NCBI GenBank assembly: GCA_963920765.1
Contig: OY987248.1
Span: 21,238,539 to 21,302,538 of the forward strand
DNA: 64,000 nucleotides
DNA from: Ulota crispa
Lineage: Eukaryota > Streptophyta > Bryopsida > Orthotrichales > Orthotrichaceae
Direction: 5' to 3'
Shown here: piece after piece, positions 588 to 62,647 of the stretch
How the letters are laid out: the number at the start of each line of letters is the position of its first letter
How positions within the stretch are numbered: the first letter of the stretch is position 1
Made by a program: the position numbers and the translations under genes
The notes under the pieces: generated by a model
Told to the model about the DNA's origin: nothing
What the model saw: the letters and a program-made list of their open reading frames with translations, nothing else
Databases searched by the model: none

Positions 588-1555
588 TTAACCCCTAAAG
601 GATCAAGCCCTTTCTTTTTGTGAAAGTGACTAAAAACTACCACTTCTGGGGGAATGAGTAGAAAGGTAGAAAAACAACTTTTTTTTTGGAAACCCAACCA
701 TCAAGTCTTGCCCTAGACTATGGGAGATACTTGTGGAAAAAAATTCAAAATATTCTAGATGTGCAGAATTGAGATATTGACATCTAAAAAGCAAAAAAAA
801 AAAAAAAAAAAAACCCTATTGCCCAAATATTCCAGAAGCCTTTGACCTCTCCAACATCAAAAAAATTGCTCTACACAAAGTTGAGGTTTATTTTCCATGT
901 AGAAGACCAAGTTAGGTAAGTGTGAGAGAATTTTCAAAAGAAATGGAGGTGTGAATCATACTTTGTAAATTCTTGCAATGTCATAAGGCCATGAAATTTG
1001 CATATACACTAGGCAAAATTGAAGAATTTATATAAAGTTCACACATCTGAATTACTTTGATCCAAATGGTAAAAACCAAGGAATCTTAGTCTACTACAAC
1101 TTGGAAAAAAAAAAACCAGAAAAAAAAAAAAACAAAGAGCCCAAAAAAGTTATGCACCAAATTTTACAAAGTGTAAAAAGAATGGAGGTTTGGGAGTACC
1201 ATACCTACCCACAAACTAAAACTTCTCATAACTTTCATCTCATCAATCAAAATTGAATAATTCAAAGCTTCCCACATATACATAAATCTACAAAACCAAT
1301 TTCAGATTTTTATTTTTTTTAAATGCAAATTTTCAAGAGATTTTTGGGATGCCAACCCTCCCCTGCTTTTCAGAAATTCATGCATAACTTCTTCAATAAA
1401 TATCAAAATGATGAAGAAATTAGATGCCAACATAGATTTTTGAATTCCTCATCTTCCATAAAACTTTCAAAAAATCACACAAAGTAAGTTAACCATAGAT
1501 ACATGCCTGAAATCCCATTTGTCTCCCAAAGGGACAACGGTCCTTTAGAGATTAA
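588..1555. mobile_element. TTAA-2 MITE, complete, 968 bp
   Basis: It begins TTAA-CCCCTAAAGGATCAAGCCC at 588 and ends ACGGTCCTTTAGAGATTAA at 1555. Relatives are at 5096-6057 (opposite orientation), 51448-53124 and 56316-57271. The two halves have different subterminal sequences: one with a CTGCCACTT-type module, the other with the GGGCATGTACNTATGG-type module. Confidence 0.85.
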
Positions 1556-1738
1556 GGACTTTTAAAAAGGCTCTTTTGGCATGTGCTTGGTGTTATGAGA
1601 AAACAAAATGCACCACTAGAAAAATTTGAATCAATATACAAACTTGTGCAATAAAGTACTCCCTTAGTCCCATTATAAAGCTCCAAAAAACTTCTCCATG
1701 AGGGATTAACTGTATTTTTAGTCATTATGCTAGTGACA

Positions 1739-2045
1739 AATGCATTCTAGAATCAATATATCACCTACCAAATTTTTGCAAAATCTCAAGTTTTTATGTT
1801 GCCATTTAGGCACCTAAATTCCATGCAAAAAGTACCATATTTGTGCATAGTTTGTGAAGGCTGCCGGCTCCTTTTTATATTAGTCTTTGTACTCATGACA
1901 CCTACATCCTAGAACCAATATACCCTCTACCAAATGTGGGCAAAATTTCCAGCTTTGAAGTTTCCATTTGGGCACCCAAATTCCATGCAAAAAGTACCAT
2001 ATTTGTACATGTTGCTAGCTCCTCATTATTGATGATTTATAAGAT
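1739..2045. repeat. Diverged tandem duplication, about 155 bp per unit
   Basis: Two adjacent units share TAGAA-CAATATA-CC-CTACCAAAT, then CCATTT-GGCACC, then AATTCCATGCAAAAAGTACC and ATATTTGT-CAT. The first lies at about 1739-1892, the second at about 1898-2045. The remainder of 1556-2399 holds no gene I can recognise. Confidence 0.7.
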
Positions 2046-2399
2046 TAGCAGCAACAATGGTACCTCATATGGGCAAGGCCAAGCTTGTTAGTAGAGAAAT
2101 GCTCCCAAATTGCTTAACTTGCCCTAGTGAGATCATTGGACATGACAAATGCTTTCTCAACAATTCAAACAAGTAAAAGGGAGCTTTTTAGTGGGACAAT
2201 AACTATGCCTCATTTGGAGCTTTATATTGAGACAGAGGGAGTAGCTACCATATTGGATTTAAGAGCACAAGCTACACTTAACTTCATAACTGGAATCGTG
2301 TTAATCAAACAAATTTGTAATAGGATAAACATAATTGAAAAGAATCAAGTTTTTCAATGATTTGTATCTAATATCTCACATGTTTTTATGTTGATTCTT

Positions 2400-3141
2400 T
2401 TAACCCTTGAGCGCCCATGTCATTTTCACTAAAATTAGAGTTTTGGGAGACCTACTACTTTGATGCATCTTATCTTAGTCAATTGGATGATCCACAAAAA
2501 GTGACCTTTGAAAATGGTAAAATTTCTACTTAGAAAGTGGCTTGCAAATTTTGGGAAAATTTGACCATGGGAGATGGGAGATTATAACATTTGATCAAAC
2601 AAAATGTGATGGCAAAATCTCAGTTTTTGGCACGTAGTTGCTATTTCATGATTTAAAAAAATTATGTAAGCCCCTAATTGATCTCAATTTTAATGAGTAG
2701 CAAGATTAGATGTGAATGCACACATGTCCAAATCTTTTTATGTTAAGTTTTAGGGCTTCAATTGCTATAGCACCAAAAACAATGATAGCACAATTGGTTG
2801 GGGTTGCCACAACAAGGGCCTAAAACATGCTTGCACCCTTGCCAGAAAATTTTCTACTACCACAAAACACATGCAAGGAAGCTTGCAAGGGGTATCAACC
2901 AATTGCAACCTCTAAGACATTGCTTGTCACCATGCTTTATATGGCATTTCACCCAATCAAGGCTCTTGAGGCACTTGTACAACATTTGGCTGGCCTTGCC
3001 ATTACTCCACTTCCATGGACCACTTGAATGCCTTCATGATTGTGATTTACAACAAGATCAAAAAATTAAATCCAATGCCTCAGACAAGCCTCTGAAATCA
3101 TGTGAGGACATTTTTTGTCCTCTAGGACATTCAAGGGTTAA
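2400..3141. mobile_element. TTAA-9 MITE, 742 bp
   Basis: It begins TTAA-CCCTTGAGCGCCCATG and ends CATTCAAGGG-TTAA. A 740-bp relative lies at 55580-56319 in the same orientation, sharing interior text such as GTAGCAAGATTAGATGTGAA and the ACAACATTTGGCT segment. The open frames at 2798-3145 and 2827-3027 are inside this repeat and are not supported as genes. Confidence 0.85.
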
Positions 3142-3828
3142 ATGAACTAATATTCCTTTGCCCACTCTTAACATTGTCTCTCTTAATTTCTTGTGACTTT
3201 TCACTCTCCATTTTCATGCCTTTTCCTCTCCCTCCTTCTTTGTCTAAATTTCAAATTTCAAGTTTGTAATGACAAATAGACACCCAACGATCAATAAGCG
3301 ACACTCAATACTCTATAATAAAAAAAATCTTTGAAATTTTTGTTGTATTAGAGAATCTTGAATTCTCTGTGACAAACAAACACGTGCTGCTTTATAATAG
3401 AGGCATGAATAGATTTTTTGCTGTTTCGATTGAATTTTTATTATTATTAAAAATATGTCAACATTTTAAACGAAGAATATTTCTTTTCCTACTTGAAGCA
3501 TGAAGTTTGACTATCTATCTATCATATTGCTTACTTCATATATGCATTTGTAGGTTAGAATCTCCAATCCATACCATAAATAAGGTATTCCGTTTTTTTG
3601 AAATTGTTAAAAGGGAATACACTTCATGAGGAGGATGGGGTCTTTTGGTTTCATGTTCACCCTTTGAAAGCTACCTTTCCCCCTGTTGTATGAATGAACT
3701 CTCAACCATCCAACTACATTCATGCTCACATGGATTGTATTTTGAATCCCTTTCAAGCTAGCAAGATCATGTTTCATACCTCACATTTTCATCACCCTTG
3801 TTGTAAAATGTGAATGTACCATTAGGGG
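3142..3828. other. No gene; contains a dispersed repeat shared with 18906-19095
   Basis: About 3600-3805 is related to 18906-19095 in the same orientation. Both carry GAACTCTCAACCAT or GAGCTCTCAACTAT, then TGCTCA-ATGG-TTGTATTT, then a CATACC-CAC-TTTTCA segment. What this dispersed repeat derives from is unknown. I see no coding signal. Confidence 0.45.
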
Positions 3829-4065
3829 TTAACCCCTCAGCGCCCGGAGTTGTTTTAGGGTTTAGGAGAAAATGAGGATTTAATGACCACCAGAGCTTGG
3901 AAAGTTACATCCAGAAGAAGTGACCATAGGATTTGAAAAGGGACTACCTTCTCTACTGATGGGGACTAGCCACAATCGTTTTCACCGTACAAATCAAGAG
4001 AAAAAGTGAGATCAAGCTGCAATCCCCAGTGACAAGATTCCGTCGCTAGGGCGCTTAAGGGTTAA
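3829..4065. mobile_element. TTAA-12 MITE, 237 bp
   Basis: It begins TTAA-CCCCTCAGCGCCCGGAG and ends AGGGCGCTTAAGGG-TTAA. The 228-bp relative at 8515-8742 shares TTTAGGAGAAAATG, GACTACCTTCT and TTTTCACCGTAC. The left TTAA is preceded by ATTAGGGG, so this element may abut the end of another TTAA element. Confidence 0.8.
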
Positions 4066-5095
4066 GGATCAGACATTAGGGGTTAAGGGTTAGAGAGTTG
4101 CCGAGCTAACCTTTATTTGCACAAATTTTTGGTAGGACTTTACCTTATTTTGGCACGACATTGCAAAAATCTTGGGGGAAACACTGGGTGAATCATCAAA
4201 TCCATCTCAAAGGAACATTGGATTTGCTATTGGGATGAATGTCACTAATATATTGTTCTCTTTCTGGATGGAACTTACTAATGAAGAGCTGATTTTGGGG
4301 ATGAACATTTTTCTTCCTTTTGGAGGTATTTTAAGTTTGCAGTCCTTGAGCCCAATTAACTTCAAGAGGCCACTTTAAGCAATTTTTGGGATAAACTTTA
4401 TGATTTAATCTTCCCTTGCATAGAGATAGTCATCCATGTATGCAAGAAAACTTCATCACTAGTGGAAATAATCAGTGTTATACTTGGAAGCTAAGGTCAC
4501 TTGTTAGTCCCACTTGTGCAATTTGTTGTATTACTGAAAGCCCTTTGGGGCACGGGGTTGGCCCCCAAAAAAAAAACCATTCTCAATGAAGGCGTTTATT
4601 TTATTTTGTTTTTAAATCAAATTCAAATTGTAAGTAACAACATTAGCCAAAACTTGACCTTTTGGAGGGACAAAGAAAAGGGGTGGCTAACTTTGACCAT
4701 TTTTTACTATTTTTTATTTTTCATATTTAAAAAAATTGATGTATGAAATGATCTCCTTATTATTTTTTCCTTTAAACTGATACCTAATTCGAAGCTTTTT
4801 ATTCCATTATGAGCTCAAAACCATTCAGATTTTCTAATTGGTTCCATACAACAATTTATTTAGCATTTGCTAATCAGTCTTCATTACAAACAAATGATTC
4901 GAAATCAGAAAACAATTCCACACTTTGCAAATCTTATAGTACCATAATATAAACAAAAAGCAAGAATTGCAAGAATAATGTACATATATAGTAATATATA
5001 TAGTAGTTTACCAATGGTTTATCTAAGATTTCTGACACATATATGAAGGATTTCCCAAGTAGATGTTTCAATATGATTTAATTGGAAAATTTTAA
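4066..5095. other. AT-rich stretch without a recognised gene
   Basis: Short open frames at 4172-4378 and 4501-4746 lack any recognisable domain and sit in AT-rich DNA. I see no TIR pair that explains the whole stretch. Confidence 0.4.
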
Positions 5096-6057
5096 TTAAC
5101 CCCTAAAGGACCATTGTCCCTTTGAGGGACAATTGGGATTTTGGGCATGTACATATGGTTAAACTACTTTCTGTGATTTTCTAAAACTTTTATTGAAGGT
5201 TAAGAATTCAAAGATCTACATGGGAATGCAACTTTTTCTTCATTCTAACATTTGATGAAGAAGTTATGCATGTTTTTTTGAAAAAAGCTGTTCAAAGGCC
5301 AGCTAAAAACATTTATAAATTTTTCATTTTTTTCAAATAAAATCTGAAATAGATTCTTTAGACTTATATAGACATGGGGCCGTGGGGGGCTTTGAATCAT
5401 TTGATTCTCATAGATGAGATGAAAGTTATGAGGAGTATTTGTTTGCGGGCAGTTCTAGATTCTCTACTCTAAAATAAACTTTGAAGTCCTTTATTTTACT
5501 CAATTTTCATTATTTTGGAAAAAACAAAACAAAACCAAAGGATGTAGATTTATATCACAACATTATAACCATTGGGATTTGCATTTTTTGTTTTAATAAT
5601 TAATTTCTTAACAATTTAGTGATTTGACTCATTCTCTACTCTTTTTACTTACTATTTTTTCTCAAGTGTTGTATAGTTCCAATTGATTTGAAATTTCTCC
5701 CACACATACCTAACTTGGTCTTCTACATGGGAAAAAAATCCACAACTTTGCGTAGAGGAATTTTTTTGATATAGGAGTGGTCAACGGCTTCTAAAATTTT
5801 TGAATAGTACAAAAAAAAAAAAAACCTTTTTCTTCACTTCATATGTAAATATCTCACCCCTTTTCATTTGGAATAAGCTCACTTTTTTCCCAAGTAACTC
5901 ATACTGTCTAGAGCAAGATCTTACAGTTTGATTTCAAATAAAAAAATAAATAAAAATTTAAAAAAAAAAAAAAAAAAAAAACCTTTCCTTTCATCCCCAT
6001 AAGTGGCAGTTTTTGGTGTTTTTCACAGAGAAAAGGACCTGGTCCTTTAGGGGTTAA
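5096..6057. mobile_element. TTAA-2 MITE, 962 bp, reverse of the 588-1555 copy
   Basis: It begins TTAA-CCCCTAAAGGACCATTG and ends ACCTGGTCCTTTAGGGG-TTAA. The first 40 bp include the hairpin TTGTCCCTTTGAGGGACAA. The interior carries two copies of the AAGTTATG-type box and the CATTGGGATTTGCATTTTT core shared with other TTAA families. Confidence 0.87.
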
Positions 6058-8834: not shown

Positions 8835-9559
8835 TTAACCCCTAAAGGACCAAGTGTCCCTTTGGGGAACAAATGGGACTTTTGGCATGTACCTATGGCT
8901 AAATTACTTTGTGTAATTTTTTGAAACTTTTATGGAAGATGGGGGATTCAAAGACCTTTGTGGGCATCTAATTTTTACCTTATTCCAACATTTATTGAAG
9001 AAGTTAAAAACGAATATATGAGAATTCTAGTTTGGCGGGCAGCCCCAAAACTTCTTTAAAAATTGCATTTTTAAATAAAAATTTGAGGTTAGTTCTTTAC
9101 ACTTAAGTATATGTGGGAAGCTTCAAATCATTCAATTCTAATTGATGAGATAAAAGTTATGAGGCGTTTTAGTTTGCGAGTAGGTGTGGAAAATCTCAAA
9201 ACTATGCCTATGTCCAAACTAAAACTTCTCATAACTTTCATTTCATCAATTAGAATTGAATGATTCAAAGCTTCTCGCATATACATAAGTCTAAAGAACT
9301 AACCTCAAACTTTTATTTTTTTTAAATGCAACTTTTAAAAATGTTTTTGGGCTGCCCGCCAAACAAAATTTCTCATACATTCATTTTTAACTTCTTCAAT
9401 AAATGTTGGAATGTGGAAAAAATTAGATGCCCACAAAGACCTTTGAATTCCCCATCTTCCATAAAAATTTCAAAAAATTACACAAAGTAGTTTAGCCATA
9501 AGTACATGCCCGAAATCCCATTTGTCCCCTGTAGGTACAAGAGGTCCTTTAGGGGTTAA
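8835..9559. mobile_element. TTAA-3 MITE, 725-bp near-perfect palindrome
   Basis: It begins TTAA-CCCCTAAAGGACCAAGTG and ends GAGGTCCTTTAGGGG-TTAA. The two halves are reverse complements over about 350 bp each, folding at about 9190-9210. A second copy of exactly the same length is at 52158-52882. It is inserted in the older MITE at 8758-10662. The uninterrupted relative has a single TTGA at 29946-29949 (plus strand) at the matching position. Confidence 0.9.
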
Positions 9560-12391: not shown

Positions 12392-13322
12392 TTAACCCCT
12401 AAAGGACTGTTGTCCCTTCAGGGGACAAATGGGATTTTGGGCAGGTACCTACGGCCTCAATTTTTGTCTTAATTTTTTGAAACTTTTTTTGAAAATAGAA
12501 AAACACATTAGCTTTTGGGAATCTAATTTTTATTCCAAGTGATGCCTGGGAGCAAAAGTTATGCCCAAATAAGCACAAATTTGGGAACTAGGGGTAGCAA
12601 AAAAAATTCTTACAAAAACTTGAATTTTTTTATTTTTTTATTTTTTCTTATAGATTATATCTTTGTCTACATCTGAAGCTTTGATTCATTCCATTTGGAC
12701 TAGTCATGAGAAAATTATGGACCATCTTGTTTTTCGGGCAACTCAAGCATCTTCTTGAAAAAATAACTTGTAAACTTCATTTTTGAATGCAAGTCTAACA
12801 TTTTTTCAAAAAAAACTGTTGGAGAGGGTGAAGTTTGCTTTCTAGAACAATCTCACCATTGGGATTATTGCATTTCAATTCCATTGCAAGGTTATTAGCA
12901 ATTTAAGTTTTTGTTCAATCTTGTACCTTCTTCTACCTAATGATTTTTTAAAGAATGAAAATTAAGTTTTATTTATTTATTTATTTTTTCTCAAGATTCC
13001 CAACTCAACTTCCCACCATGCAAAAATAGAATTTCAAACTCTATGGAGCAAAAATTTTAAGTTAAAAATGTTCAAAGTTAAAAAATCTAGTCAAGCAAGG
13101 TGCAAAAAAAGCTATTTTTACACTTTAAATGCATATATCTTCCAGTTTGTGAGGTCAAAGTTATTGAGTTTTGTATGACACATTCTTATAGTAGTCTAGC
13201 ACAAGATCCTACGGTCAGATATGCAAAATGCCTGATTTTCAAACTTTTTTACTCTTTGCCATAGAGGTGGCAGTTTTGAGTGTGTTTTGACAAAATAAAG
13301 GCCATGGTCCTTTAGGGGTTAA
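12392..13322. mobile_element. TTAA-1 MITE, 931 bp
   Basis: It begins TTAA-CCCCTAAAGGACTGTTG and ends GCCATGGTCCTTTAGGGG-TTAA. Three relatives of 929-930 bp are at 34717-35645, 39093-40022 and 53121-54049 (reverse). The interior has two AAGTTATG-type boxes (12522-12597 and 12677-12747) and the CACCATTGGGATTATTGCAT core. Confidence 0.9.
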
Positions 13323-13415: not shown

Positions 13416-15266
13416 TTAACCCCTAAAGGATCAAACCTTCATTTTTAGAAACATAGCAATTTTGGGCAGGTACTATACGTGTGGTTGGAGCTTTTCATAT
13501 TTTAGGCTGAAATTTTAACCCCTAAAGGCCCAAGGAGCCCACTTTGGGCTTTATGAGAATTTGGGCAAGCTCTCTTGACTTCATAATTTGGAATTTTTCA
13601 TAAAATTTTAGGATGGATGCTACTCATCATAATCTACATGTGAAGCTTTATTTCATGTCATTCCAATAAGTAATGCAAAAGTTATAAGGTTTTTTCAATT
13701 TCAATGTCAAATCAAGCAGCAAAAAATATATTCTAAAATTTTTAATTTTATTTTTATAGAACTGTATAGATTGATACCTACTCAAAAAAGATTGAATCAC
13801 TCAATTCCAAATAATGAAGTAAGAGTTACAAGGAGTTTTCTTTTGCAGGCAATGAAGGTAGGAAGAGGGTAGAAAAAACATAGAAAGTTATCTTTTACTC
13901 TCAATTTTGAAAATTTTCAAATGAAAATGAAAAAGAAAGTTACAAATTGACTGTTAGAGACTTGGAACATTCTCACCATTGGGATTAACAATTTTCAAAT
14001 TCTTCCAAAACTTATTAGCATATAAGTTACATCTTTCATTCATCAATACCTTTCACTTTACAATTTTTGTAAAAATGAATCCAAATTTCTTTTGGTTAAT
14101 TGTTTTTATATATGCTTTCAACCCATTTTCCAACATATTGCAAAAATTGCACAAGAAATACAACATACATATTTTTCTCTAAAAAGTTTGAAAATCAAAA
14201 CTTCACCTTCTAGAAGGATTAGAAAAACCTACATTTTGAAGTTTGGGCACATTGATCTTGAAATTGGTGGGGAGATTCATTCTAAAATTTTGGGACAATG
14301 TAGTTGTGCAAGTCAACCAAAGGATCCTACAATGGGATTTGTGAAAAAGTAAGTTTCAATGAATATTTTGACCCTAGTTTGGGGACTAGTATTTTGAAGC
14401 AGTTTTGGGCCTCTAAACACAAAAGAATTTTAGGGGTTAACAGAATGTGGAGACAACGTTTATCTTTCATATTCACTAAATTTCATGACATTTGGAGTTA
14501 TGAGTAAAAAGTTATGGCCTCATATGTTGTTTTTTACATTTGTTGGGCAGCCTAGTCAGATTTTTAAAAATCATTTTTTTCAAAAACAATTCTTTTAAAT
14601 TGGTTGAGGAGATTTATGTGAATGTAGGAAGCTTTGAACCATTCTGTTTGGATCAACAAGATGAAAGTTATGAGGATTTTTAGTTTGCGGATAGTTATGG
14701 ATTCACTACTCTAAAATTAACTCTGAAGTCCTTTATTTTACTCAATTTTCATTATTTTGGAAAAAACAAAACAAAAGCAAAGGATGTAGATTTTTTATTA
14801 GAACATTACAACCATTGGGATTGGCAATTTTCATCTCCATAATTAAATTTTTAACAATTCAGTGTTTTGAATCATTCTCTACTTCTTTGTTTCTCTTAAA
14901 AAATTTCCATATGTTATACAATTCCAAATGATTTGAAACTTTTTTGACATGTACTTTACTTAAGTGGAATAAGGAATTTATAGAAGCACCACCCACATGG
15001 CCTTTTTTCCTTAGGAATTTCACCTTCCCAAGGGTAGTTGCCCAATTTTTCACAAGACGTTTTTGAATATTCAAACCATTCTAACTTCCAATCCACATGG
15101 TGGAAAACTCTGAATTTTTTTCCACATCTGCTGCAACCATTCTTTTACAAGATCCTACAGTCACATATGCATAAAAATGTTTTTGTTTTCAAATTTGGTT
15201 GATGCTCTAAAATGGCAGTTTAGGAGAGTTTTTGGTGAAAACTTTGCTTGGACCTTTAGGGGTTAA
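13416..15266. mobile_element. TTAA-5 MITE interrupted by a TTAA-4 element
   Basis: It begins TTAA-CCCCTAAAGGATCAAACC and ends TTGGACCTTTAGGGG-TTAA. Removing the inner element (13515-14440) leaves 929 bp. Relatives are 1-489, 30275-32297 and 36130-36736. The 30275 relative reads straight through the insertion point with one TTAA (30357-30360). Confidence 0.88.
13515..14440. mobile_element. TTAA-4 MITE, 926 bp, nested in a TTAA-5 element
   Basis: It begins TTAA-CCCCTAAAGGCCCAAGG and ends AAAAGAATTTTAGGGG-TTAA. Next to the left end lies the hairpin AGCCCACTTTGGGCTT. Relatives are 23916-24830 (reverse, 915 bp) and 26780-27572 (793 bp, internally shortened). Confidence 0.9.
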
Positions 15267-34110: not shown

Positions 34111-34169
34111 ACAAATGTAGGCATAAGATCTTGTACTACACTAGTATAAAAAGATGTACAGTCTGGTAT

Positions 34170-40022: not shown

Positions 40023-40080
40023 TGATTCATGATTTTTGCTCAATGCTTTTATTCACTTTATGAGTATAGCACAAGGAGAT

Positions 40081-44243: not shown

Positions 44244-45016
44244 TTAACCCCTAAAGGACTAAAGTGCCCAATATGGCCACAAGGGGTGCTTGGAGGTGTG
44301 AAAGTATACAAAAGAGGTATTTTTAGCTCAAATTTTGGTTTGCCACTCAAGTCCAAATGGAGTTGCTAGTTCAATAAAAATTTCTAATTGGCTTGTTTCT
44401 TGATGCATCTCCTTTGCTCTAGATTCTACATGGAATATGGAAAATATTTTATTTTTTCAACAATTAGGAGAAGAATGTCTTTGGGCAAACAAAGGGAGTG
44501 GCTTAGAGAGCAAATGGAATGCCTGCTTTCATGTCTCGTATTGTACAAGGGAGAAGTTTGGTGATGTGTCACGTTTTTTTCTTAATTTGGGCAAGGTTTT
44601 TATAGCTCTAAAGTAAGGAGCTAGTGGACTCTAGCTACTTTGAGTGACCATATCTTTTGGAGTTTTTTTCCATTTATGGAATTTGTTTTTTTCATCAAGT
44701 ACAGCAAGACACAATCTCATGGGATTAACCATTAGGTATATCTTTTTTTTGAGAAAATATTACAAGAAAGTCCAAAATCCATAGTTTGAACTGTTGCCCA
44801 AATTGAAAAACATGAGATTCTCAACGGTGGAGATTTTGCAGATTTACTTGGATTTGAAATCAAATTGGGTTAAATCATTTCATTTATAGTTGGGTATAGA
44901 ATGACCAATTTGGATTGTGTGATTACTTGTTCAACTTTCCAAAAACTAGGGGAATATATTGAAGGTTTCATGTTGGAATTATGCTAAATTTTCTTAGCAA
45001 GACGCTTAGGGGTCAA
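44244..45016. mobile_element. TTAA-10 MITE, 773 bp
   Basis: It begins TTAA-CCCCTAAAGGACTAAAG and ends GACGCTTAGGGG-TCAA, with the right target mutated. The 775-bp element at 60812-61586 is its reverse complement along the full length, for example the GATTAACCATTAGGTA segment and its complement. Confidence 0.86.
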
Positions 45017-46915
45017 GGAGAAGGGAACCACATCCCTTGTGAAGAATGTCCACATCCTTACTCGCCGAATTTAACTAGTGAAAAGTTCTCATCTTCTTTT
45101 GAGGTGCCCTCAAAATGCTTGTCTCCCATCCTTGCTCACCAAACATGTGTTGTAATAGTCAATCGATTAATCAAAAAATGCTAGTTAAACTTATGATAAA
45201 TAAAGATTTTAGGACCTTTGCTTGACATGTTAGGATTTTGTGCCATGCCAATATTTTGAGGAGGCTAGAGCACTTATCATAAGTTTGAAACCCACTACTA
45301 GGTGAAAAATATTTTTTGAAATTTTTTTCCCTTTTGAAATTATGCAACAACTAACTTAAATGTTGTTATATAATTTAACAAACTAATTGTAGAATCTTGA
45401 AAATTATTCAACCATGCACTAATTTGCAAAATTTTACTAAGACTGAGCTGTGCATTTTGGGATTAGAATGATCAAGGGTAATTTAAATTGTCAAAATGAC
45501 CAAATCAAAAAAGGAAAAAAAAAAACTTCAAATACAAAATTACTTATGATACAACGTTTACAAAATATAGAGAAGCTTAGATGCTGTAGAACACAACTTT
45601 AGAAAGATCCTATTAACATTCAAAGACTATGAGTTGTGATGCAGAAGATATTGTACTTCAAAGAAAGGGGAATAAGCAAAAATTGTTTTATGACTCGAGG
45701 ATAGGAGCTTGGAATTGTATCCATTCTGACTTTGTATAAATTTTGAAATTGTCGATGTCATATGGTATCTTTTATTGTATTTAAAACATAGTAAAGGACC
45801 ACACAATACTTCAAAACGATCTTACAAACATTTTATTTTATATTTGATTTTGATTCAAATGATAAATTTTAGAGAGTGCATCCATATGTTCAATCGTATG
45901 GTTATGATGATTTATGGATCACAATTTAATTAGTTACTTAAAAAGCTATCATATGTGATCCTTTAAAATTTTACTTTTCAACACATCTACATGTCTTTAT
46001 GCCCATAAGGAGTTAAACAATTAACCCCCAAATGCCCAAATGAGAAAAAGCAACTACTCGTACAAATGCAGGAATTGAAATAAATAATTTGAGAAGATTT
46101 AAAGAAGATAAGTAAATGTAACAATGACAAGAAGAACTTTATCCTAGATCTTTTGATAAACATAAATATGTATTAGTTGCCAATATAATTAGTTACGAGC
46201 TTACTAAGTGACCTTTCAATTTTTTTGAATTAGAATGCTTAGAAATGAATCTATTATTACCTGGATTAAAAAAGGTCTGAATTTACTTTGGAAGTAAAGC
46301 ATTGATTATGGTAGCCTCAAAAATATACTTTAATTTTCTACAAAATCATAGATTACGATTTTCCTTTTTGCCACCATTGTCACATATTATCACATTTTCG
46401 AAAGTTTCCCATATGACTTGATTTTTACTCTCAAATTTAGGGTTCTTTCTTTTGGCAAATTTTAGCTTGAATCTTATCTCAAAAAACCTTTGGCTATCAT
46501 TACACTAAGAAGTTTGGGTGAAAAGTGGATGGATTGAATTGCCAAATCCTTCCTTGAGAGCAAAAACATCATTTACCAAATTTTGAATGAAAGTAGCTTA
46601 TGTTCGTGATTTTTTGGACAAACTTTCACATGTCATTCATTCTTTCCAATCTTTAGGTAAATTTTCTTTACCTGCGTGCATTTTGGGGTGCGGGTCGCTC
46701 TACCCTGCTCGACCCCAATGGTACAAATAGTGGCCACTTCCAACTTTTAACCACATGCATATGACAGGTTTGAAGAATTTAATAACATGCAAAGGAAAGC
46801 AAGAATGGAAGGATTATATGAAATTTGGGAGCCAAGGGGGTGCCAAAACAGGTAAGTGGGGGAGTAGGGGACTAGGTCACTAGGAACTAGGTCTAGGGAG
46901 ACCCCCAACATGGAA
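45017..46915. other. Upstream intergenic region of the MYB gene
   Basis: AT-rich sequence without a recognised element extends to about 46660, then GC content rises toward the gene. At 46021 a TTAA-CCCCCAAATGCCC start looks like a TTAA-element left end, but no matching right end follows within 2 kb, so it may be a remnant. Confidence 0.35.
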
Positions 46916-46922
46916 ACGTGGC
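46916..46922 (+). promoter_or_regulatory. Possible G-box/ABRE-like site
   Basis: ACGTGGC, a G-box core recognised by plant bZIP and bHLH proteins, lies about 95 bp upstream of the TATA-like box. A second CACATGTGG E-box-like palindrome follows at once. The role is inferred from position and sequence only. Confidence 0.3.
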
Positions 46923-47016
46923 CACATGTGGGGCCTGAATTAAAAGGCGAGCCTACGGCCTACGCTACGCCCCAAATATGCTCTCCCCACTCAAATTAGA
47001 CACCCGTGATATCCCC

Positions 47017-47023
47017 TATATAG
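47017..47023 (+). promoter_or_regulatory. TATA-like box of the MYB gene
   Basis: TATATAG follows a CCCC run at the start of the GC-richer island. It would place transcription start near 47045-47055 and give a leader of about 660 nt. An alternative start near the CT-rich tract at 47551-47573 would make the leader about 150 nt. Confidence 0.4.
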
Positions 47024-47049
47024 ATGAAAATCATCCACAACGGATGAGG

Positions 47050-47716
47050 ATGGAATGAACGCGCCAGCCCTCCACGAAGCAGCGCCCTCCTCGCCGCAGG
47101 CAGGCAACAAGAGAGAGTGGCCGCCCTACGCAGGCCTTTTTCTCTCCGGCCCTCCGAGAGTTTCACGGTCCTCCTCATCTACAGTCCATACATCACATAC
47201 TCCCCGCCCGGTGGGTTATTGCAATACGCGCTACTACTACTCCTTGGATTCAAGTGCGTTTTGGAGCCTCGGGAAGGGGGGGCCATTTTTAGCACAGGAA
47301 TGCACAACTAGGGCCGCAGGGGTAATAACAACGACCACGGAGACGATGAAGAGCGTGCTCTGAACCTCGCTTGCTCTTTTCTTCTTTGAAGACTCCGTCT
47401 GAGAATGTGGTAGTTGTTGCCGTGTTGTTGAGAGAGTTGGTGGGTTGCGTTTTGTCACGGGATTGGTGACGAATCCTTAACAATTTTTCGTATCTGTGGA
47501 TCCGACGCCTCCTTGGGTCACATCGATTGGTGGGGTTCCATTAGAGTTTGCTTCTTTCTCTCTCTCTCTATCTGGATTCTGTGGAAATCCTTTAGCTCTT
47601 GCATTCCGGGGCTATAGAACACTTTTTGTTACTCTCTTTGTGGTGGTGGTGGGTTTTCCTCCATTTGGAGTTGGTATCCCGTGGTCGTCAAGCTGGCAGC
47701 CCTGGAGCACAACGAG
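47050..47716 (+). other. Putative 5' leader of the MYB gene with upstream open frames
   Basis: If transcription starts at the TATA-like box, the leader holds several ATGs. One opens a 102-codon frame at 47055-47363. A very short one starts at 47044 if the start site lies upstream of it. A pyrimidine tract of CT repeats at 47551-47573 resembles the Y-patch seen near plant start sites. An unrecognised leader intron cannot be excluded. Confidence 0.35.
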
Positions 47717-49559
47717 ATGAGCAGGCGGTGCTCGCACTGCGGCCTCAATGGCCACAACAGCCGGACGTGCCCCGACCGCGGGGTGCGCCTGTTCGGCGTC
47801 CGACTGACGGACGTCGTGAGCAGCATGAACATGCGCAAGAGCGTCAGCATGAACAACCTCAACCACTACGCCAACCCCCACAATCCCCCGTCCCCTCCGG
47901 AACCGTCCGAGTCCGGCGCTCCCCCTGACGGATACGTCTCAGATGGGTTGGTCCAGACCTCTAACAACGCTCGCGAACGCAAAAAAGGTACCCAAAAATC
48001 CCCCTCTTTAGCCATGTCTAAGCATTTGCTCCTTCTTGGGTTCTGCCTCTTTAGCAAATCCGGATACATGCAAGCAGTTCTGCAGAAATGTACTACAATT
48101 TGTCACAGTCTCGAACTTGCCTTTTTCATAACAGGGTTATCTTTAGAGCTAAACTCATTACCGAAATTTACGCAACTAAGAATCCTACTCATGCACAAAT
48201 TCTTTAAGAGAGCTTCATTGCAAGATTTGAAGGATTTGTGAGTCTTTTAACGTAGTTTGAAACTATCCTATTGATGTGTCGAATGGTATATTTAAGTGTT
48301 TTGAATTATCGTTTGTTTGAGAGATTGTACTTGAATAGCATTGCCAACCTTGAAATGTAGTCCTCGTTAGATGTGAAGTAATCGGCATTGTGAATGTTAG
48401 TTCCAAGTAGCAAAAAGCAATTCTATTCACAATAAAAGTTCTGGGTGATATTTGTAGAGCGTCTTTGGGAATTATGGGGTCTAAGTAGATGTTTTTGTAC
48501 TGTGACAGGTGTGCCGTGGACGGAAGACGAACATCGGCTATTTCTGCTTGGATTGCAGAAACTGGGGAAGGGTGACTGGAGAGGTATCTCCCGCAACTTC
48601 GTACAAACGCGGACGCCAACCCAGGTGGCTAGTCATGCGCAGAAGTACTTCATCCGGCAAAGCAACATGAACAAGAGAAAGAGACGGTCAAGTCTGTTCG
48701 ACATTGTATCCGAATCGGTAGGTGTCAATACTCTCCCCGTTTGTCGTTTCTAGAGAGAGACTTGCACATTCTCTCTCTATGCAAGTCTCTCTCTAGCGAT
48801 GTTTTCGATATAGCTGCATGGGTGTTGTTACTGAATGTGTGGTTGATTATGTTATAGGGTGTTCCCACGATTGCCGAGGAGTCGACATCGGTGGCGAGTC
48901 AAGAGCAGAGCAACCCCATGCATCAGTTAAGCTTGGGACCGAGCTCCATGTACTCGCCGGGAGTGTTATACGAGCCAACTCCAATGCAGGGGTATGGTGG
49001 ATTGGCAGCGCGGCCTTATTCAATGCCGAAGCACATGACGCTTCCCATGGCTCTACCGTTGATGACCATTGGTAACTCCGGAGCAGCAGTGACAGCGGAT
49101 CAAGTCACCGAAGTGGTAGGCATGGGCTACAGCATGGAGAGCTCTGCAATCCAGAGACCAGTGCCGATGAACTACACCATGGAAGCAAATGGAGTGGAGA
49201 GAAATGACAAAGGCCCAGCTCTGTCTCTAGGCGGCTCCTCAGGACTGCCAAAGCTCCCCTTTTCATTCAATTCCTGGCCAGGGCAAGGGTTTAGGGTGCC
49301 CACAAGCTCGTCTCCTCCGAACTCCAACATTGTCAGACCTACAGCCAAGGTGGCTGCTGTCAATGCCACACCGATCAAGCTCGAGGACGATTCCAAGGAC
49401 ATAGCGCAGCTTAGCTTAGGGTTGTCACCTCCGGAGCCTTCTCAATTAACCGCCAAGCTTCTCGACCCTCCGTCCAGACATTCCTCCGCGTTTCATGTGA
49501 ACTCCACCTTCGACACCAACAGTATACAACAAGGAGTGAACGCCATCAGCGTGGTTTGA
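47717..49559 (+). CDS. Single-repeat MYB transcription factor, zinc-knuckle + SHAQKYF class (MYBS3/KUA1-like)
   Basis: This gene encodes a 393-residue DNA-binding protein in three exons: 47717-47987, 48509-48717 and 48858-49559, with GT-AG introns of 521 and 140 bp. Residues 5-18 ([14 protein letters not shown]) form a CX2CX4HX4C zinc knuckle, followed by the conserved [11 protein letters not shown]. The MYB repeat (about 91-141) starts VPWTEDEH, has the helix 2 segment [12 protein letters not shown] and ends in VASHAQKYF (130-138), the signature of this plant class. NKRKRRSS (145-152) is a likely nuclear signal. LSLGL (345-349) fits an LxLxL EAR repression motif. The start ATG gives the family's usual MxRRCSHC N-terminus; no stop intervenes upstream for 36 nt, but that extension lacks an ATG. 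Known relatives (rice MYBS3, Arabidopsis KUA1/MYBH) bind TATCCA or I-box type sites and mostly repress sugar, growth or senescence genes. The exact orthologue cannot be decided here. The gene looks intact. Confidence 0.95.
48750..48796 (+). other. Perfect 17-bp inverted repeat in MYB intron 2
   Basis: CTAGAGAGAGACTTGCA (48750-48766) and its exact complement TGCAAGTCTCTCTCTAG (48780-48796) surround a 13-nt loop within the 140-bp intron. In RNA this would be a stable stem taking up a third of the intron. Whether it influences splicing is unknown. Confidence 0.8.
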
Positions 49560-50738
49560 AAAGGCATAGCTTTTTTCAGCATTTTTTTTGGGTTTCGTTT
49601 TAGAGTTTGAGAGTGTCTCAGCGCAACTCCGGTGTAGATGATGACTGACACAGCCTGCAATGAAAAAAAAAAACAAACGAGCTATTCTGGTTATGGTTAT
49701 GGTTCCCTCTCCCTTGTAGACTAAATTTTTTATGTACATATCTACATTTATTTTTGTGCCAGAGGCCCTTATAGGCAGTTTTTTAGCAGTTGTAAATTAT
49801 AGTGAAAAAAAAGAGGGGTAGCTTAGCTTTTTGTTTTCTTCTTGAGAGTTGAGCGAGCTAAGGAATGGCGTCAGTTGCTATTATTCCCCTCTGAGTTTCT
49901 CTTGTACTTCTACAACGTTTTTTTTATGGACAATTGCTTGGACTGTCTTTTAGTAAAAACTCACCTCTTGTTGTTGCATAGCTCTTTGTGGGGAATTTTG
50001 CACGGTGGTGTGTTGGATGAAGTTCCACATGGCAAGCGGGGAACTCATGTAGGAGCCCCCGGAGTTTGTTGTGGTGATATTATAGAGGGGTTTGAGTGTG
50101 TAGGAGGGATTCATTCACATTGAAATGGGGAGAGATTGGGGAAATCTGGAACCACATTCTAGTGTGTACTTGCTGGCCGGTAATCATGGTCTGAATATAG
50201 GTTGCAGGTGGGGTTTCAGTGTTCTCACTGACACAGTCAATGAATTGGAAAGCTGCAGAGGTGCGTGCCTGTGCTCCGGAATTGTGGGATTTTTTTGTTT
50301 TGTTTTCTTGTCCCGCAATTCTATGATTATTTTACATGGTTATCTGTTTTGTTTTTTGAGAATTTCAAAAAGAGTAGAACAAAGAAGAGAGTTGGAGTAT
50401 GCAGGCAGGCTCGGCTGTCTTGTTTTATTTTTGCAGTAAGTTACCAGTTGCAGCATCATGAGCATCTGAAGGTGTTGTCGTGTGGTGCACATTTTACAGA
50501 CGCTTGATTGGGGTTTCGTGTACATCGTTTTGCAGGTGGTGTTTCAGAGTTGACTAAAGGAATAATTGTAGATATTTGCAAATCTTCTGATAGGATTGGT
50601 AATGAAGTTTTGTTTAAACAATTCAAACGTGCAACAAATAGTTGAATGATAAAGGCAACACAACAGTGCAATTAAACACAAGTCAAACCTGCGAATTATC
50701 CACATCAAAGTCCAAGATGTAGAACATTCTATAGTTTG
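49560..50738 (+). other. 3' region of the MYB gene, then intergenic
   Basis: Downstream of the stop, GC content stays raised to about 50110. There are several T-rich and TGTA-containing stretches (for example TTTTTATGTACATATCTAC near 49730) that may serve as plant polyadenylation elements, but no AATAAA. Frames at 49842-50123 and 50125-50439 have no recognisable domain and are probably transcribed trailer or chance. Confidence 0.4.
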
Positions 50739-50794
50739 TTAGAGCATCCCCAATCCAGCCGTAACAGAGGCAAGGCTAAAGCTTGTGCATCGTG

Positions 50795-51451
50795 TTAACC
50801 CCTCACCGCACATGGTATTTTTGAGTATTTCAGAATTTGCTTGAAACTGAACAAAATGCCAGCGTTTTTATCATTCTTATTAATTTTCTCTGAAGCCCAA
50901 CCGTACAAATTCAAAGTAAACATGCTGTAGATCACACAAGAAAAAAAACCACAACAATATCATTTATGGATTGAAAGATTATAATGTTTGATCATGAGGG
51001 TGTTAAAAATTGGAAAAGTGATTTGAAGTCTTTTAATCCTCTTTTTGCATCTCAAACCTAAAAATTGAGGGTACCAAAAAAATATGAGTATGTAAAAGTC
51101 TAACATGTATAACCCCAATCAATTTACAGCTTCTCAAAATCTATTCTACTATTTTTTTAAATGAATTTTTAATGTGAATTTTTCTCCAAGATCTAGTGTA
51201 CTTGAGGATCATTTCCAAGAGCCTTCAACACTAAAAAGTGAAGATTTGCAGTGGACACCCTTGCACAAAATCTTGAATAGACAAATCACTTTAATTCATT
51301 TTCAAAATCAAACTCCTAATGCTAAAACTAAACTTCAATAAGAGTTTAAAAATAATAATAATCACTAAAACAAATCTTGAAAAAAGGTTGCACATCTCTA
51401 TATAAAATTTAGAGGGGCCCAGTTTGGGCCTCTTGGGCGGTGAGGGGTTAA
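50795..51451. mobile_element. TTAA-8 MITE, 657 bp
   Basis: It begins TTAA-CCCCTCACCGCACATGG and ends CTTGGGCGGTGAGGGG-TTAA. It is the reverse complement of the 654-bp element at 61994-62647, with TTATGGATTGAAAG and ATGTTTGATCA in common. Its right TTAA is the left TTAA of the next element. Confidence 0.88.
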
Positions 51452-53124
51452 CCCTTAAAGGCCCAAGCCCTTTTTTTGTGAAAATTACTCAAAACTGCCA
51501 CTTTTGGGGGAGTGAGGAGAAATGTAATTTTTTTTTTTCTTTTCAAAATCCAACCAAAAGATCTTGCCCTAGACTATGGGAGGTACTTGTGGGATCAAAA
51601 TCAGCTCATTCTAGTAGTAGAGGAGTGAGATATTGACATTTGAAGTGAAAACAAAAGTTTTTTTCCTTGCTACCCAAAAATTTCAGAAGCCTTTGACAAC
51701 TCCTATATCAAAAAAATTGCTCTACGCAAAGTTGAGGTTTCATTTTCCCATGTAGAAGACCAAGTTAGGTAAATGTGGGAGAATTTTCAAATGAAACGGA
51801 GGTGTGGATCATACTTTGTAAAACCTTGCAATGCCGTAAGGTCATGAAATTTGCATATACACTTGGCAAAATTGGAGGATTTATGTAAAATTCAAAAACC
51901 CAAATCCAAATGGTGGAAACCAAGGAATCTTAGTCTACTACAACTTGCAAATAAATAAAATCAAAAAACAAATACACAAAGAGCTCAAAAAAGTAAAACA
52001 ACAAGTTTTACAAGGGGGAAAAGGAATGGAGGTTTGCAAGTCCCATACCTACCCGCAAACTAAAATTTCCCATTACATTCATCTCATTTATCAAAATTGA
52101 AAGATTCGAAGCTTCTCAAATACATAAAAATTTAAAGAACCAATTTCAAGGTTTTATTTAACTCCTAAAGGACCAAAGTCCCCTCGTGGGACTTTTGGGA
52201 TTTTGGGCATGTACTTATGGCTAAACTACTTTGTGTAATTTTTTGAAACTTTTATGGAAGATGGGGAATTCAAAGATCTATGCGGGCATCTAATTTTTTT
52301 CCTCATTCCAACATTTTTTGAAGAAGTCAAAAATGAATTTATGAGAATTTTAGTTCGGCGGGCAGCCCAAAAACTTCTTTAAAAATTGCATTTTTAAAAA
52401 TAAAAATTTGAGGTTAGGTCTTTAGATTTATGTATATGTGGGAAGTTTTGAATCATTCAATTCTAATTGATGAAATGAAAGTTATGAGAAGTTTTAGTTT
52501 GCGGGTAGGTGTGGAGAATCTCAAAACTATGCCTACATGCAAATAAAACTTCTCATAACTTTTATCTCATCAATTAGAATTGAATGATTCAAAACTTCCC
52601 ACATATACATAAGTCTAAAGACCTAACCTCAAATTTTTGTTTTAAAAAATGCAACTTTTAAAGAAGTTTTTGGGCTGCCCGCCGAACTAAAATTCTCATA
52701 AATTCATTTTTAACTTCTTCAATAAATGTCAAAATGAGGAAAAAATTAGATGCCCGCATAGATCTTTGAATTCCCCATCTTCCATAAAAGTTTCAAAAAA
52801 TCACGCAAAGTAGTTTACCCATAGGTATGTGCCCGAAATTCCATTTGTCCCCGAAAAGGGGGTTTGGTCCTTTGGGGGTTAAAAAGTTGCAAGTTTTTTT
52901 TTTTTTTTTTTTTTTGCTGCCCGATTCTCCCTTGTTTTTCAATTATTCATGCATAACTTCTCCAATAATTGTCAGAATGAAGAAAAAATTAGATTCCCAC
53001 GTAGATCTTATAATTCCCCATCTTCAATAAAAGTTTCACAAAATCACACAAAGTAGCTTAGCCATAGGTACCTGCCCAAAATCCCATCTGTCCCTCGAGG
53101 GGACAATGGGCGTTTAGGGGTTAA
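51448..53124. mobile_element. TTAA-2 MITE interrupted by a TTAA-3 element
   Basis: It begins TTAA-CCCTTAAAGGCCCAAGCC and ends ATGGGCGTTTAGGGG-TTAA. Without the inner palindrome (52158-52882) it measures 956 bp, matching 588-1555 in the same orientation. It shares a TTAA with its neighbour on each side. Confidence 0.88.
52158..52882. mobile_element. TTAA-3 MITE, 725-bp near-perfect palindrome
   Basis: It begins TTAA-CTCCTAAAGGACCAAAG and ends TTTGGTCCTTTGGGGG-TTAA. The arms (for example GTTCGGCGGGCAGCCCAAAA and TTTTGGGCTGCCCGCCGAAC) are complementary over about 350 bp. Its length is identical to the copy at 8835-9559. Confidence 0.9.
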
Positions 53125-54049
53125 CCCCTAAAAGACCATGGCCTTTATTTTGTCAAAAGACACTCAAAACTGCCACCTCTATGACAAAGAGTAAAAAAGT
53201 TTGAAAATCAGGCATTTTGCATATCTAACTGTAGGATCTTGTGCTAGACTATTACAAGAATATGTCATACAAAACTCAAGAACTTTAACTACACAGATTG
53301 GAAGATATTTGCATTTAAAAAGTAAAAAACAACTTTTTTTGCACCTTGCTTGATTAGATTTTTTAACTTTGAACATTTTTAACTTAAAAATTTTGCATCA
53401 CAAAGTTTGGAGTTCTATTTTAGCATGGTGGGAAGTTGAGTTGGGAATCTTGGGAAAAAATCTCAAAAAAGAATACTTAATTTTCATTCTTTAAAAAAAC
53501 ATTAGGTAGAAGAAGGTATGAGATTGAAGAAAAACTTAAATTGCTAATAACCCTGCAATGGAATTGAAACGCAATAATCCCAATGGCGAGATTATTCTAG
53601 AAAGCAAACTTCACCCTCTCCAACAATTTTTTTTGAAAAAATGTTAAATTTGTATTCAAAAATGAAGTTTATAAGTTATTTTTTCAAGAAGATGCTTGAG
53701 TTGCCCAAAAAACAAGATTGTCCATAACTTTCTCATAACTAGTCCAAATGGAATGAATCAAAGCTCCAAAAGTAGATAAAGATATAATCTATGAGAAAAA
53801 CAAATTAAATTTTGTTTTCAAGTTTTTGTAAGAATTTTTTTTGCTGCCCCTAGTCCCCAAATTTGTGCTTATTTGGGCATAACTTTTGCTCGCTGGCATC
53901 AATTGGAATAAAAATTAGATTCCCCAAAAGCTAATGTGTTTTTCTATCTTAAAAAAAGGTTTCAAAAATTAAGACAAAAATTGAGGCTGTAGGTACCTAC
54001 CCAAAATCCCATTTGTCCCTTGAAGGGACAATGGTCCTTTAGGGGTTAA
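53121..54049. mobile_element. TTAA-1 MITE, 929 bp, reverse orientation
   Basis: It begins TTAA-CCCCTAAAAGACCATGG and ends CAATGGTCCTTTAGGGG-TTAA. It is the reverse complement of the elements at 12392, 34717 and 39093. The open frame at 53179-53376 recurs in the 34717 copy. Confidence 0.9.
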
Positions 54050-59211: not shown

Positions 59212-59759
59212 TTAACCCCTAAATGTTCAAGGGGGTAAGGGCAAAACATAGATGTGTTATAAAATGATACTTTTGTAATTTTGGTGAAGATTGCTTCAAA
59301 AGAGAAAACAAGAATCATGATCTTCAGTAATTATCCATAGGGTCAAACATTCAAAAAAAGTTTTGGACTCTTATTTAATGAATTTAGAAGCATATATATT
59401 TTAATATTCATTGAAATTACAAGTTCTATTCATAGAATTTAAAATTTGGTTTGATTGGTTGAAAATAAACATTCTATTCATAACTTTAAAAATACAATAT
59501 TTTTGAAGGAGAGAACATCATTAGTTTCCCAAAATAGTAAATTTTGCAACACTAACAAAAATTGAAGTGTTTGTCTTTGAAAAATTCTCCTTCATGGAGC
59601 CTAATTTGAATTGACATGTTCCAAACTCGGTTGGAAAGTAGACTTGCTTTCTTATATAAAAGTGTTTTTTATATTTATTTTGAGTGTTGTTTGAATTTCG
59701 GGCAGCCCGCAAAAAAGGGCAACGACCTGGAAATGGTTGATTGGGCATTTAGGGGTTAA
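59212..59759. mobile_element. TTAA-7 MITE, 548 bp
   Basis: It begins TTAA-CCCCTAAATGTTCAAGG and ends TTGGGCATTTAGGGG-TTAA. It aligns with 18355-18905 end to end. Confidence 0.89.
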
Positions 59760-59779
59760 AGCAATAGATTACACACAAA

Positions 59780-60201
59780 GGGGATTGATATGTCTACCAC
59801 ACACTTTTAGCTATTCTACCATACCCCGGGGTAAATTTTAGATTGTTACATCCAAATAGTTGAATTTGAGAATTTGGAATTCAGATTTGGACTTAGAGAC
59901 CTTGATTTTGTCTAGAACCATTAAAAAAATGTTGTAATTGGACAACACCCAATGAAAAAGCTTAGCTTGGGGAAAATATTGCTTTTACTTTTGTTTATAA
60001 AAAAGATAAGCTTTTTCATTAGGTGTTGTTCAATTAGAACATTTTATGATTTTAGACTAAATCACGGTCTCTAAGTCCAAATTTGAATTCCAAATTCTCA
60101 AATTCAACTTTTTGATGGTAAAAATCTAAAATTTACCAAGTCAGTGTGGTAAGTGAGTGTGGTAGAATAGGTGAAAGGGTGTGGTGGACATATCAATCCC
60201 C
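59780..60201. mobile_element. Hairpin MITE, 422 bp, relative of 21664-22064
   Basis: The ends GGGGATTGATATGTCTACCA and TGGACATATCAATCCCC are inverted, with long complementary arms sharing GAATTCAGATTTGGACTTAG, AACACCCAATGAAAAAGCTTA and their complements. The ends are better kept than in the 21.6-kb copy, but no target duplication is obvious. Confidence 0.75.
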
Positions 60202-60811: not shown

Positions 60812-61586
60812 TTAACCCCTAAGCATCTTGTTAAGAAAAATTAGCATACCTCCAATATGGAACCTTGAACACATTCCCTTAATTTTTAGAAAGTTGATCA
60901 AGTATTCACACAATCCAGACCAGTCATTTTATACCCAATTATAAATTAAAAGTTTAAAACTAGTTTGATTTCAAATCCAAGTAAATTTGTAAAATTCACA
61001 CAATTGAGAATCTTATATTTGTTAATTTGGGTAGCAGTTCATAATATGGATTTTGGACTTTGATGTGATTTTTCCCAAAAAAAATAATTACCTAATGGTT
61101 AATCCCATGAGACGGTGTCCATCTATATTTGATGGAAAAAAACTCCTCAAATGGGAAAAAACTCCAAAACTTATGGTCATTCAAAGTAAGTGGATCTAGC
61201 TGGCTCACTACTTTAGAGTTACAAAAACCTTACGCAATCAAGAAAAAAAAAAGTGACACATCACCAACCTTCTCTCCTATACATGGGAGTATGGGCTTCC
61301 AACCCATTCCATCCAAAATTCCTCCATCCACAATGCAATGTTCATTGCCTATAGGTACTCTCACTAATAGTTTTAATATTAAAAATAATAAATACAAATG
61401 TTTGGGTGCAAAATCTAGAGGCTTCAAGGAACAACAAACTAATCCAAAAGTTTTGTTGGACTTTTAACTCCATTTGGACTTGAGTGGCAAACCAAAACTT
61501 GAGCATGCAATGCCTTTTTTGTCTACTTTTACACCTCCAAGAACCCCATTTGGCCATATTGGGCTCTTTGGGCCTTTAGGGGTTAA
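60812..61586. mobile_element. TTAA-10 MITE, 775 bp, reverse orientation
   Basis: It begins TTAA-CCCCTAAGCATCTTG and ends TTTGGGCCTTTAGGGG-TTAA. It is the reverse complement of 44244-45016. The open frames at 61129-61467 and 61230-61427 lie inside and oppose one another. Confidence 0.87.
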
Positions 61587-61635
61587 CCTGCTCTTGTGTT
61601 GAGGTTCCAGAAATCTTTGGAGTTGCATTGTGTAT

Positions 61636-61775
61636 AAGGTAAGTATACTCATTTTTGACCATGTACCCAATTTTGTCACTATGTACCGCGGGTGGTCATT
61701 TAAATTTGAAATGACCACCCCTAGGTACATAGTGATAGAATTGGGTACATGGTTGGGAATGGGTATACCTACCTT
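61636..61775. mobile_element. Small hairpin MITE (AAGGTAGRYAYACCC family), 140 bp
   Basis: The ends AAGGTAAGTATACTC and GGGTATACCTACCTT are complementary. The arms include CATGTACCCAATT/AATTGGGTACATG and the centre is ATTTAAATTTGAAAT. Its sister is 55066-55204. Confidence 0.7.
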
Positions 61776-61993
61776 ACTACCAAGGCTCAAGGAGTTGGGG
61801 CCTTATGCAATTGGGCCTCAAATTAGTTGAATTGCTTGCCCTTAATCTTGCAAAATTACAAGGTTACAAATGAGCATCATAGCTTGAAGCATGAAGCACT
61901 AGAGGAGACTTTGGAACTTTTAGCTTGAATTGTGGAGACTTTAATTTCTTTTGTCAGTGCAAAATGTTGGAGGCTCATTTACAAATGACTTTC

Positions 61994-62647
61994 TTAACCC
62001 CTAAATGTCAAAGGCACCACATTATGGTGTTGACAATACTTTCAACTTCTATAAAACCTAACTAAGTTGTTATCTTAAGTAGATTTTATTTTTTTAACTA
62101 TTCTTTCTGAAGTATAGTTTTAGTATCAAAAACCCAATTTTATAAACCAATTATTATGATTTTTCTATTCAAGATTTTGTGCAAGGGTGTCCATTGCAAT
62201 CTTGACTTTTTTAGCGTCGCAAGCTCTTAGAAATGAGCCTCAAACACACTAGACCTTGGAGAAAAATTTACACTAGAAATTCATTTAAAAATATTGTAAA
62301 AGAGACTTTGAAAAGCCATAAATCAATTGTAGTTATGTATGTTATGTCCTTTAACCCCATCTTTTTCTTGTGACCATTTTTTTAATTTGACATGTAAAAA
62401 GAGGATTGCAAGAATTCAAGTCATTTTCACAATTTTAACACCCTCTTGATCAAACATTATTTAACTTTCAATCCATAAATGATATTGTTGTGTTTTGTTT
62501 TTGTATGTGATCTCTAACATATGTAGTTTGATTTTGTACGGTTACAATTGAAAAAAAACTAATACAACTTATCAAAATTTTTGCTTTTTGTTCAACTTAA
62601 AACAAATTCCTAGAAGCTCAAAAAGTGCCTTGGCATTTAGGGGTTAA
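61994..62647. mobile_element. TTAA-8 MITE, 654 bp, reverse of 50795-51451
   Basis: It begins TTAA-CCCCTAAATGTCAAAGG and ends GCCTTGGCATTTAGGGG-TTAA. It shares its full interior in reverse complement with the 50.8-kb copy. Confidence 0.88.

Follow-up and report, generated by a model that had tools for sequence, protein, structure and literature searches.

Which family of transposons has filled a 64,000-nucleotide stretch of the genome of the moss Ulota crispa (contig OY987248.1, positions 21,238,539 to 21,302,538; hereafter the window) with short repeats flanked by TTAA, and could it be piggyBac, a standard tool in animal genetics that in plants is usually regarded as negligible? It is very probable that the window repeats are non-autonomous piggyBac elements of this moss, in the form of miniature inverted-repeat transposable elements (MITEs). 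The reading of these repeats as piggyBac MITEs in a land plant follows from three observations taken together, namely repeat ends far above chance frequency, flanking TTAA, and a longer element elsewhere in the genome, at a locus here numbered L032, which carries a piggyBac transposase between the same ends.

The end motif TTAACCCCTAAA occurs exactly 34 times on the two strands of the window and 49 times when up to one mismatch is allowed, as against 0-1 and 0-3 times, respectively, in 20 first-order Markov controls of the same make-up. At two mismatches the signal is weaker (73 in the window vs 7-20 in the controls), so that part of the 24 two-mismatch ends is attributable to chance. Throughout the 274.8-Mb assembly of 157 contigs, in which the window is G000:C7:21238539-21302538, the 12-mer TTAACCCCTAAA is found 15,477 and 15,495 times on the two strands (30,972 in total), compared with 41 and 36 (77) for its reversed pattern, while the 14-mer CCCCTAAAGGACCA is found 4,405 and 4,471 times (8,876) and TTAACCCCTAAAGGACCA 3,781 and 3,774 times (7,555), the controls being 0 for both. 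TTAA lies directly 5' of exact CCCCTAAAGGACCA in 7,555 of 8,876 cases genome-wide (85%). The TTAA flanks and piggyBac-like CCC ends described in the original prediction, which was made from the letters of the window, were thus confirmed; its suggestion of a genome dominated by such MITEs was too strong. The genome mean is 7.2 exact TTAACCCCTAAA per 64 kb, which makes the window, with 34, about 4.7 times richer and therefore not typical of the genome. Scaled by the 570-640 bp that are covered for each exact end in the window, a crude extrapolation, such MITEs are estimated to occupy roughly 18-20 Mb, or 6-7% of the genome.

Within the window, 27 elements could be paired end to end. Since the ends for pairing were picked for near-TTAA flanks and for likeness to CCCCTAAA, the genome-wide TTAA figure is the independent measure; among the pairs themselves, TTAA stands on both sides in 24 and a one-base variant on one side in three, and 51 of the 54 ends start with CCC (the remainder with TCT, CTC and CCT). 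Twenty-four elements measure 225-966 bp, while those beginning at 51452, 13420 and 30279 reach 1.7-2.0 kb owing to a further element nested within each. Together the pairs cover 19,379 bp, equal to 30.3% of the window; partial copies raise the figure to 21,628 bp (33.8%). Self-BLAST can be read as about a dozen families with copies approximately 70-95% alike. The earlier figures of about 38 copies, at least 14 families and near 39% were therefore somewhat high, although of the right order of size. The elements have the properties of MITEs, being short, non-coding, bounded by inverted repeats and, with about 31,000 exact ends genome-wide, high in copy number. The expectation that an autonomous source would lie outside the window also held, as the profile of the genome's own piggyBac transposases gave 0 matches in it at E-values up to 10. 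The paired elements, none with an assigned strand, are as follows.

592-1551: piggyBac-type MITE of 960 bp, alignable at both ends with the termini of L032 (7.17 kb, transposase-bearing)
3833-4061: short MITE, 229 bp, ends CCCCTCAGCGCC / CCCTTAAGCGCC; self-BLAST, end pairing
5100-6053: MITE, 954 bp; 88% identity over 183 bp between its left end and that of L032
8509-8738: short MITE, 230 bp; family of 3833-4061
8839-9555: MITE, 717 bp; family of 52162-52878; related uninserted site has TCAA
9787-10323: MITE, 537 bp; family of 18359 and 59216
12396-13318: MITE, 923 bp; family of 34721, 39097 and 53125
13420-15262: older MITE, split by the insertion 13519-14436; end counts, self-BLAST, pairing
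13519-14436: MITE, 918 bp; related copy without the insertion has one TTAA at the junction
18359-18901: MITE, 543 bp; family of 9787 and 59216; self-BLAST, pairing
23920-24826: MITE, 907 bp; family of 13519 and 26784
26784-27568: MITE, 785 bp; family of 23920 and 13519; self-BLAST, pairing
30279-32301: older MITE, left flank TTGA, split by 30792-31757, right end uncertain; pairing
30792-31757: MITE, 966 bp, matching the 5.08-kb locus L029 at both of its ends
34721-35641: MITE, 921 bp, lying in an inverted-arm repeat; one TTAA at each of four related sites that lack it
37246-37470: short MITE, 225 bp; pairing
39097-40018: MITE, 922 bp, right flank TAAA; self-BLAST, pairing
40797-41152: MITE, 356 bp; family of 43281-43627
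43281-43627: MITE, 347 bp; self-BLAST, pairing
44248-45012: MITE, 765 bp, right flank TCAA; family of 60816
50799-51447: MITE, 649 bp, ends CCCCTCACCG; family of 61998
51452-53120: MITE split by 52162-52878; self-BLAST, pairing
52162-52878: MITE, 717 bp, nested in 51452-53120; self-BLAST, pairing
53125-54045: MITE, 921 bp, left TTAA common with the neighbouring element; pairing
59216-59755: MITE, 540 bp; family of 9787; self-BLAST, pairing
60816-61582: MITE, 767 bp; family of 44248; self-BLAST, pairing
61998-62643: MITE, 646 bp, ends CCCCTAAATG; family of 50799; self-BLAST, pairing

The target site was approached through uninserted relatives, for which the flanks of each insertion were joined across one TTAA and sought in the window and the fetched loci. 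Junction-crossing matches were obtained for seven of the 27 insertions, and four were retained, those of 51452, 53125 and 30792 being dropped as neighbours or inverted flanks. A single TTAA is present at four sites related to the insertion 34721-35641 (two in L029, one each in L024 and L018) and at one site related to 13519-14436 (window 30323-30429), and the related uninserted sites of 8839-9555 and 52162-52878 are degenerate (TCAA and TTGA). It was also observed that a repeat family with inverted arms holds the TTAA used as a MITE target (window 34157-34716 and 35646-35954; L029 395-1271). Such sites bear on the notion that the ends are captured telomere-like repeats, to which CCCCTAAA lends itself by including CCCTAAA, the plant telomere unit. 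That notion is barely conceivable, given that the ends are single units standing as inverted pairs at TTAA and followed by family-specific sequence, and that related uninserted sites exist for some insertions.

Long spacings between + and - copies of TTAACCCCTAAAGGACCA were chosen without reference to transposases, and five were fetched (L029-L032 and L036). L032 is 7,171 bp long, with TTAA on both sides and the first 14 bases of its terminal inverted repeats identical (CCCCTAAAGGACCA), and it contains a piggyBac domain split across three frames. At its left end, 183-201 bp show 86-88% identity with the ends of MITEs at 5090-5272 and 53124-52924. Both termini of the window MITE 588-1555 align with those of L032 (84% over 198 bp, 72% over 552 columns). 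As the alignment shows, this MITE stands in a deletion-type relation to L032, both ends being homologous and the middle missing. The original prediction had proposed searching the whole genome for an intact element that shares these ends and encodes a DDE_Tnp_1_7 transposase; L032 has exactly the CCCCTAAAGGACCA ends and a gene of this type, in decayed form. A second of the five, L029 (G000:C1:459800-465050), is 5.08 kb long and has CCCCTAAAGGACCA ends at TTAA that match both ends of the MITE 30792-31757.

A profile search of the genome for DDE_Tnp_1_7 yielded 120 match rows, the best at 1.3e-73, and three open frames were assigned to this domain by Pfam. The protein of L019 matches bat piggyBat (2.5e-20) and Trichoplusia ni piggyBac (7.2e-19; chains 6x67 and 9c0f), and in the alignment of this one copy the three aspartate motifs are in register with both, at positions that we take to have the catalytic roles of the DDD triad. 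The C-terminus is rich in cysteine in L001, the one copy examined for it. Twenty transposase loci were read out, and the ten elements that could be delimited measure 5.0-7.5 kb. L009 and L018 are 90% identical over 5.0 kb, end to end and through the piggyBac gene, and the limits of their alignment coincide with CCC(C/T)TCAT ends, outside which TTAA is found in three of four cases (TTCA left of L018). L012 (5.74 kb) and L022 (5.45 kb) are likewise related and have CCCCTAAATGCC ends, at one of which their alignment begins; one L022 flank is TCAA. Their end type is that of the window MITEs at 59755 and 62643 (CCCCTAAATG), and their transposases are decayed. The boundaries of both couples were set by homology and not by motif. 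No ends were found within 1.5 kb of eight transposases, because the elements are longer than that. A second repeat with inverted arms, of about 400 bp, occurs in the window at 21665-22067 and 59779-60201, inside the piggyBac elements L012 and L022, and also in L025.

A tree of 20 transposases (19 fetched loci and L032, with L025 left out) contains a group of six, made up of L032, L011, L012, L022, L016 and L023, that receives 100% support in the Shimodaira-Hasegawa-like approximate likelihood ratio test (SH-aLRT). The transposases of the CCCCTAAA-ended elements all fall within this supported group, and the end types CCCTTTA, CCCTTGA, CCCCTCA and CCCCTAAGC lie elsewhere on the tree; end types follow the transposase phylogeny. 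These results argue against the ownership of the ends by another TTAA-specific superfamily, with the piggyBac genes as unrelated neighbours. Kolobok and Sola3 both use TTAA, neither was represented by a profile in our searches, and L029 has such ends without a recognised transposase. With the piggyBac gene of L032 lying between matching ends, the homology of L009 and L018 running end to end through theirs, and the end types tracking the piggyBac tree, an origin from Kolobok or Sola3 is nevertheless highly unlikely.

Several findings weigh against assigning the repeats to piggyBac. The transposase of L032 is frameshifted and contains stops, so that the partner presented here is a fossil, and it is the one transposase element among the five long end pairs picked by spacing. 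L030, L031 and L036 were rejected as long elements, each consisting of separate MITE copies, and no recognisable transposase was found in L029 with the piggyBac profile or in the two of its eight open frames of at least 75 amino acids that were compared with Pfam; L029 could carry captured DNA or a novel gene. Among 527 transposase candidates, 116 were scored and 411 were not, and only 10 of the 120 DDE_Tnp_1_7 rows are free of stops. Matched CCC-type ends bracket only nine of the 20 transposase loci (GGG-type ends bracket none), and several of these nine pairs use the ends of neighbouring MITEs; this bracket test was not relied on, because dense MITE ends make some brackets accidental (for example, 479-9595 in L009). 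On the tree, L011 is represented by its right end only, the CCCCTAAA label requires two changes and not one because no ends were found for L016 and L023, and seven of 500 label shuffles do as well as the distribution seen.

A different origin, from PIF/Harbinger (Tourist-type) MITEs whose TTA/TAA target duplication was misread as TTAA, draws on the abundance of Harbinger-type transposases, with 150 DDE_Tnp_4 matches in the genome, and on the statement in a passage of one review that plant MITEs are often of this type (PMC10004981). TTAA outside both ends of one inverted repeat is, however, impossible from a 3-bp direct duplication, and L032 carries piggyBac. Two of the 150 loci, each 7 kb, were compared: L038 has no CCCCTAAA end and shows TTA + GGCCCGCTTTACAT on both sides, and L037 has one CCCCTAAA end about 2.3 kb to one side with none facing it. 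A DDE_Tnp_4 partner sharing the MITE ends, which the original prediction had named as the contrary case, with a 3-bp TWA duplication, was not seen at these two loci, and a Harbinger origin is extremely unlikely. Separately, window 42182-42358 matches the end of the Harbinger element L038 (inverted ends TTA + GGCCCGC), so that Harbinger-derived DNA is also present in the window.

As piggyBac MITEs, the repeats retain terminal inverted repeats of the form CCCCTAAAGG(A/C)CC or closely similar to it. Recognition of these ends, excision and insertion at TTAA would be the work of a piggyBac-superfamily transposase made by longer elements of this genome. Such a transposase lineage probably moved the MITEs in trans, and the hairpin and seamless-excision chemistry of piggyBac would presumably apply here as well.

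The moss elements resemble T. ni piggyBac and bat piggyBat in their TTAA target, their short inverted repeats of CCC type and a DDE_Tnp_1_7 domain with three aspartate motifs, and differ from the superfamily as otherwise known in their moss host, in their approximately 31,000 exact ends genome-wide and in an extra upstream protein module in many copies. In animals, piggyBac MITEs are short, non-autonomous, TTAA-flanked elements with the ends of a longer partner; the general features are alike, as judged from descriptions, whereas the host here is a plant. The ten delimited moss elements, at 5.0-7.5 kb, are longer than the 2.2-3.5 kb given for bees (PMC10140906). For plants, the repeat tables of two studies list PiggyBac with 1,230 copies at 0.00% in the fern Ceratopteris (PMC6890710) and with one copy in Stipa (PMC8319324), one list of superfamilies has piggyBac as present in all groups studied (PMC4438587), and passages of two reviews name it as a plant or angiosperm superfamily (PMC10794571, PMC10004981). 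The amounts in those tables are traces, whereas U. crispa is put at approximately 6-7% by extrapolation and a transposase partner has been identified. The superfamily itself was already in print for plants, at trace level where amounts are given; the kind is known, and the host and scale are unexpected. The main text of the U. crispa cbUloCris4.1 genome paper (PMC11803377) does not contain the words 'transpos' or 'repeat', and none of the literature matches listed, which did not extend to repeat databases, describes an amplification of piggyBac in mosses. One moss paper matching 'piggybac' contains the word 'piggybacking' and is unrelated.

That one moss has piggyBac ends in the tens of thousands, along with numerous diverged transposases, shows a plant to be capable of carrying and amplifying piggyBac, which makes the distribution, origin and silencing of this superfamily in land plants testable. 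It also serves as a warning that TTAA MITEs of bryophyte genomes may be filed as Harbinger or as unclassified repeats. Tentatively, and as a somewhat doubtful extension, it may be proposed that a deep and diversified lineage of piggyBac, equipped with its own upstream protein module, resides in mosses and drove the greatest expansion of piggyBac MITEs so far observed in a land plant, possibly after transfer from another kingdom.

The upstream module is a conserved block of about 110 residues. Nine of the 20 loci have it, 5' of the transposase and on its strand, namely L014 (2522-2896, + strand) and eight recognised by similarity to L014. A genome search with the L014 module gave 91 matches. 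In 36 of these a scored transposase follows 1.4-4.5 kb downstream in the same orientation, whereas flipping the strands gives 0 and six position shifts give 0-1 (116 transposase places). The other 55 have no scored transposase downstream, which may be because 411 candidates were unscored. Three copies of the module gave no Pfam match, wider open frames gave none above the cut-off, and searches found no solved relative at E-values up to 0.2 and no fold match at E-values up to 0.001; the structural model is weak and helical, with a mean predicted local distance difference test score (pLDDT) of 64.8. Possible identities of the module are an N-terminal exon and a second protein. Harbinger has a second protein that binds DNA or the transposase, and by analogy the moss module could do likewise.

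As for the remainder of the window, a Myb-domain gene at 48436-48750 fits a plant, as do light-harvesting genes of the genome, and the host, which the original prediction took to be a plant, is indeed one, a moss. The region around the Myb-domain gene, 46700-50795, is free of paired MITEs. A tandem array of a 22-bp unit, with 5.8 copies, occupies 40072-40199.

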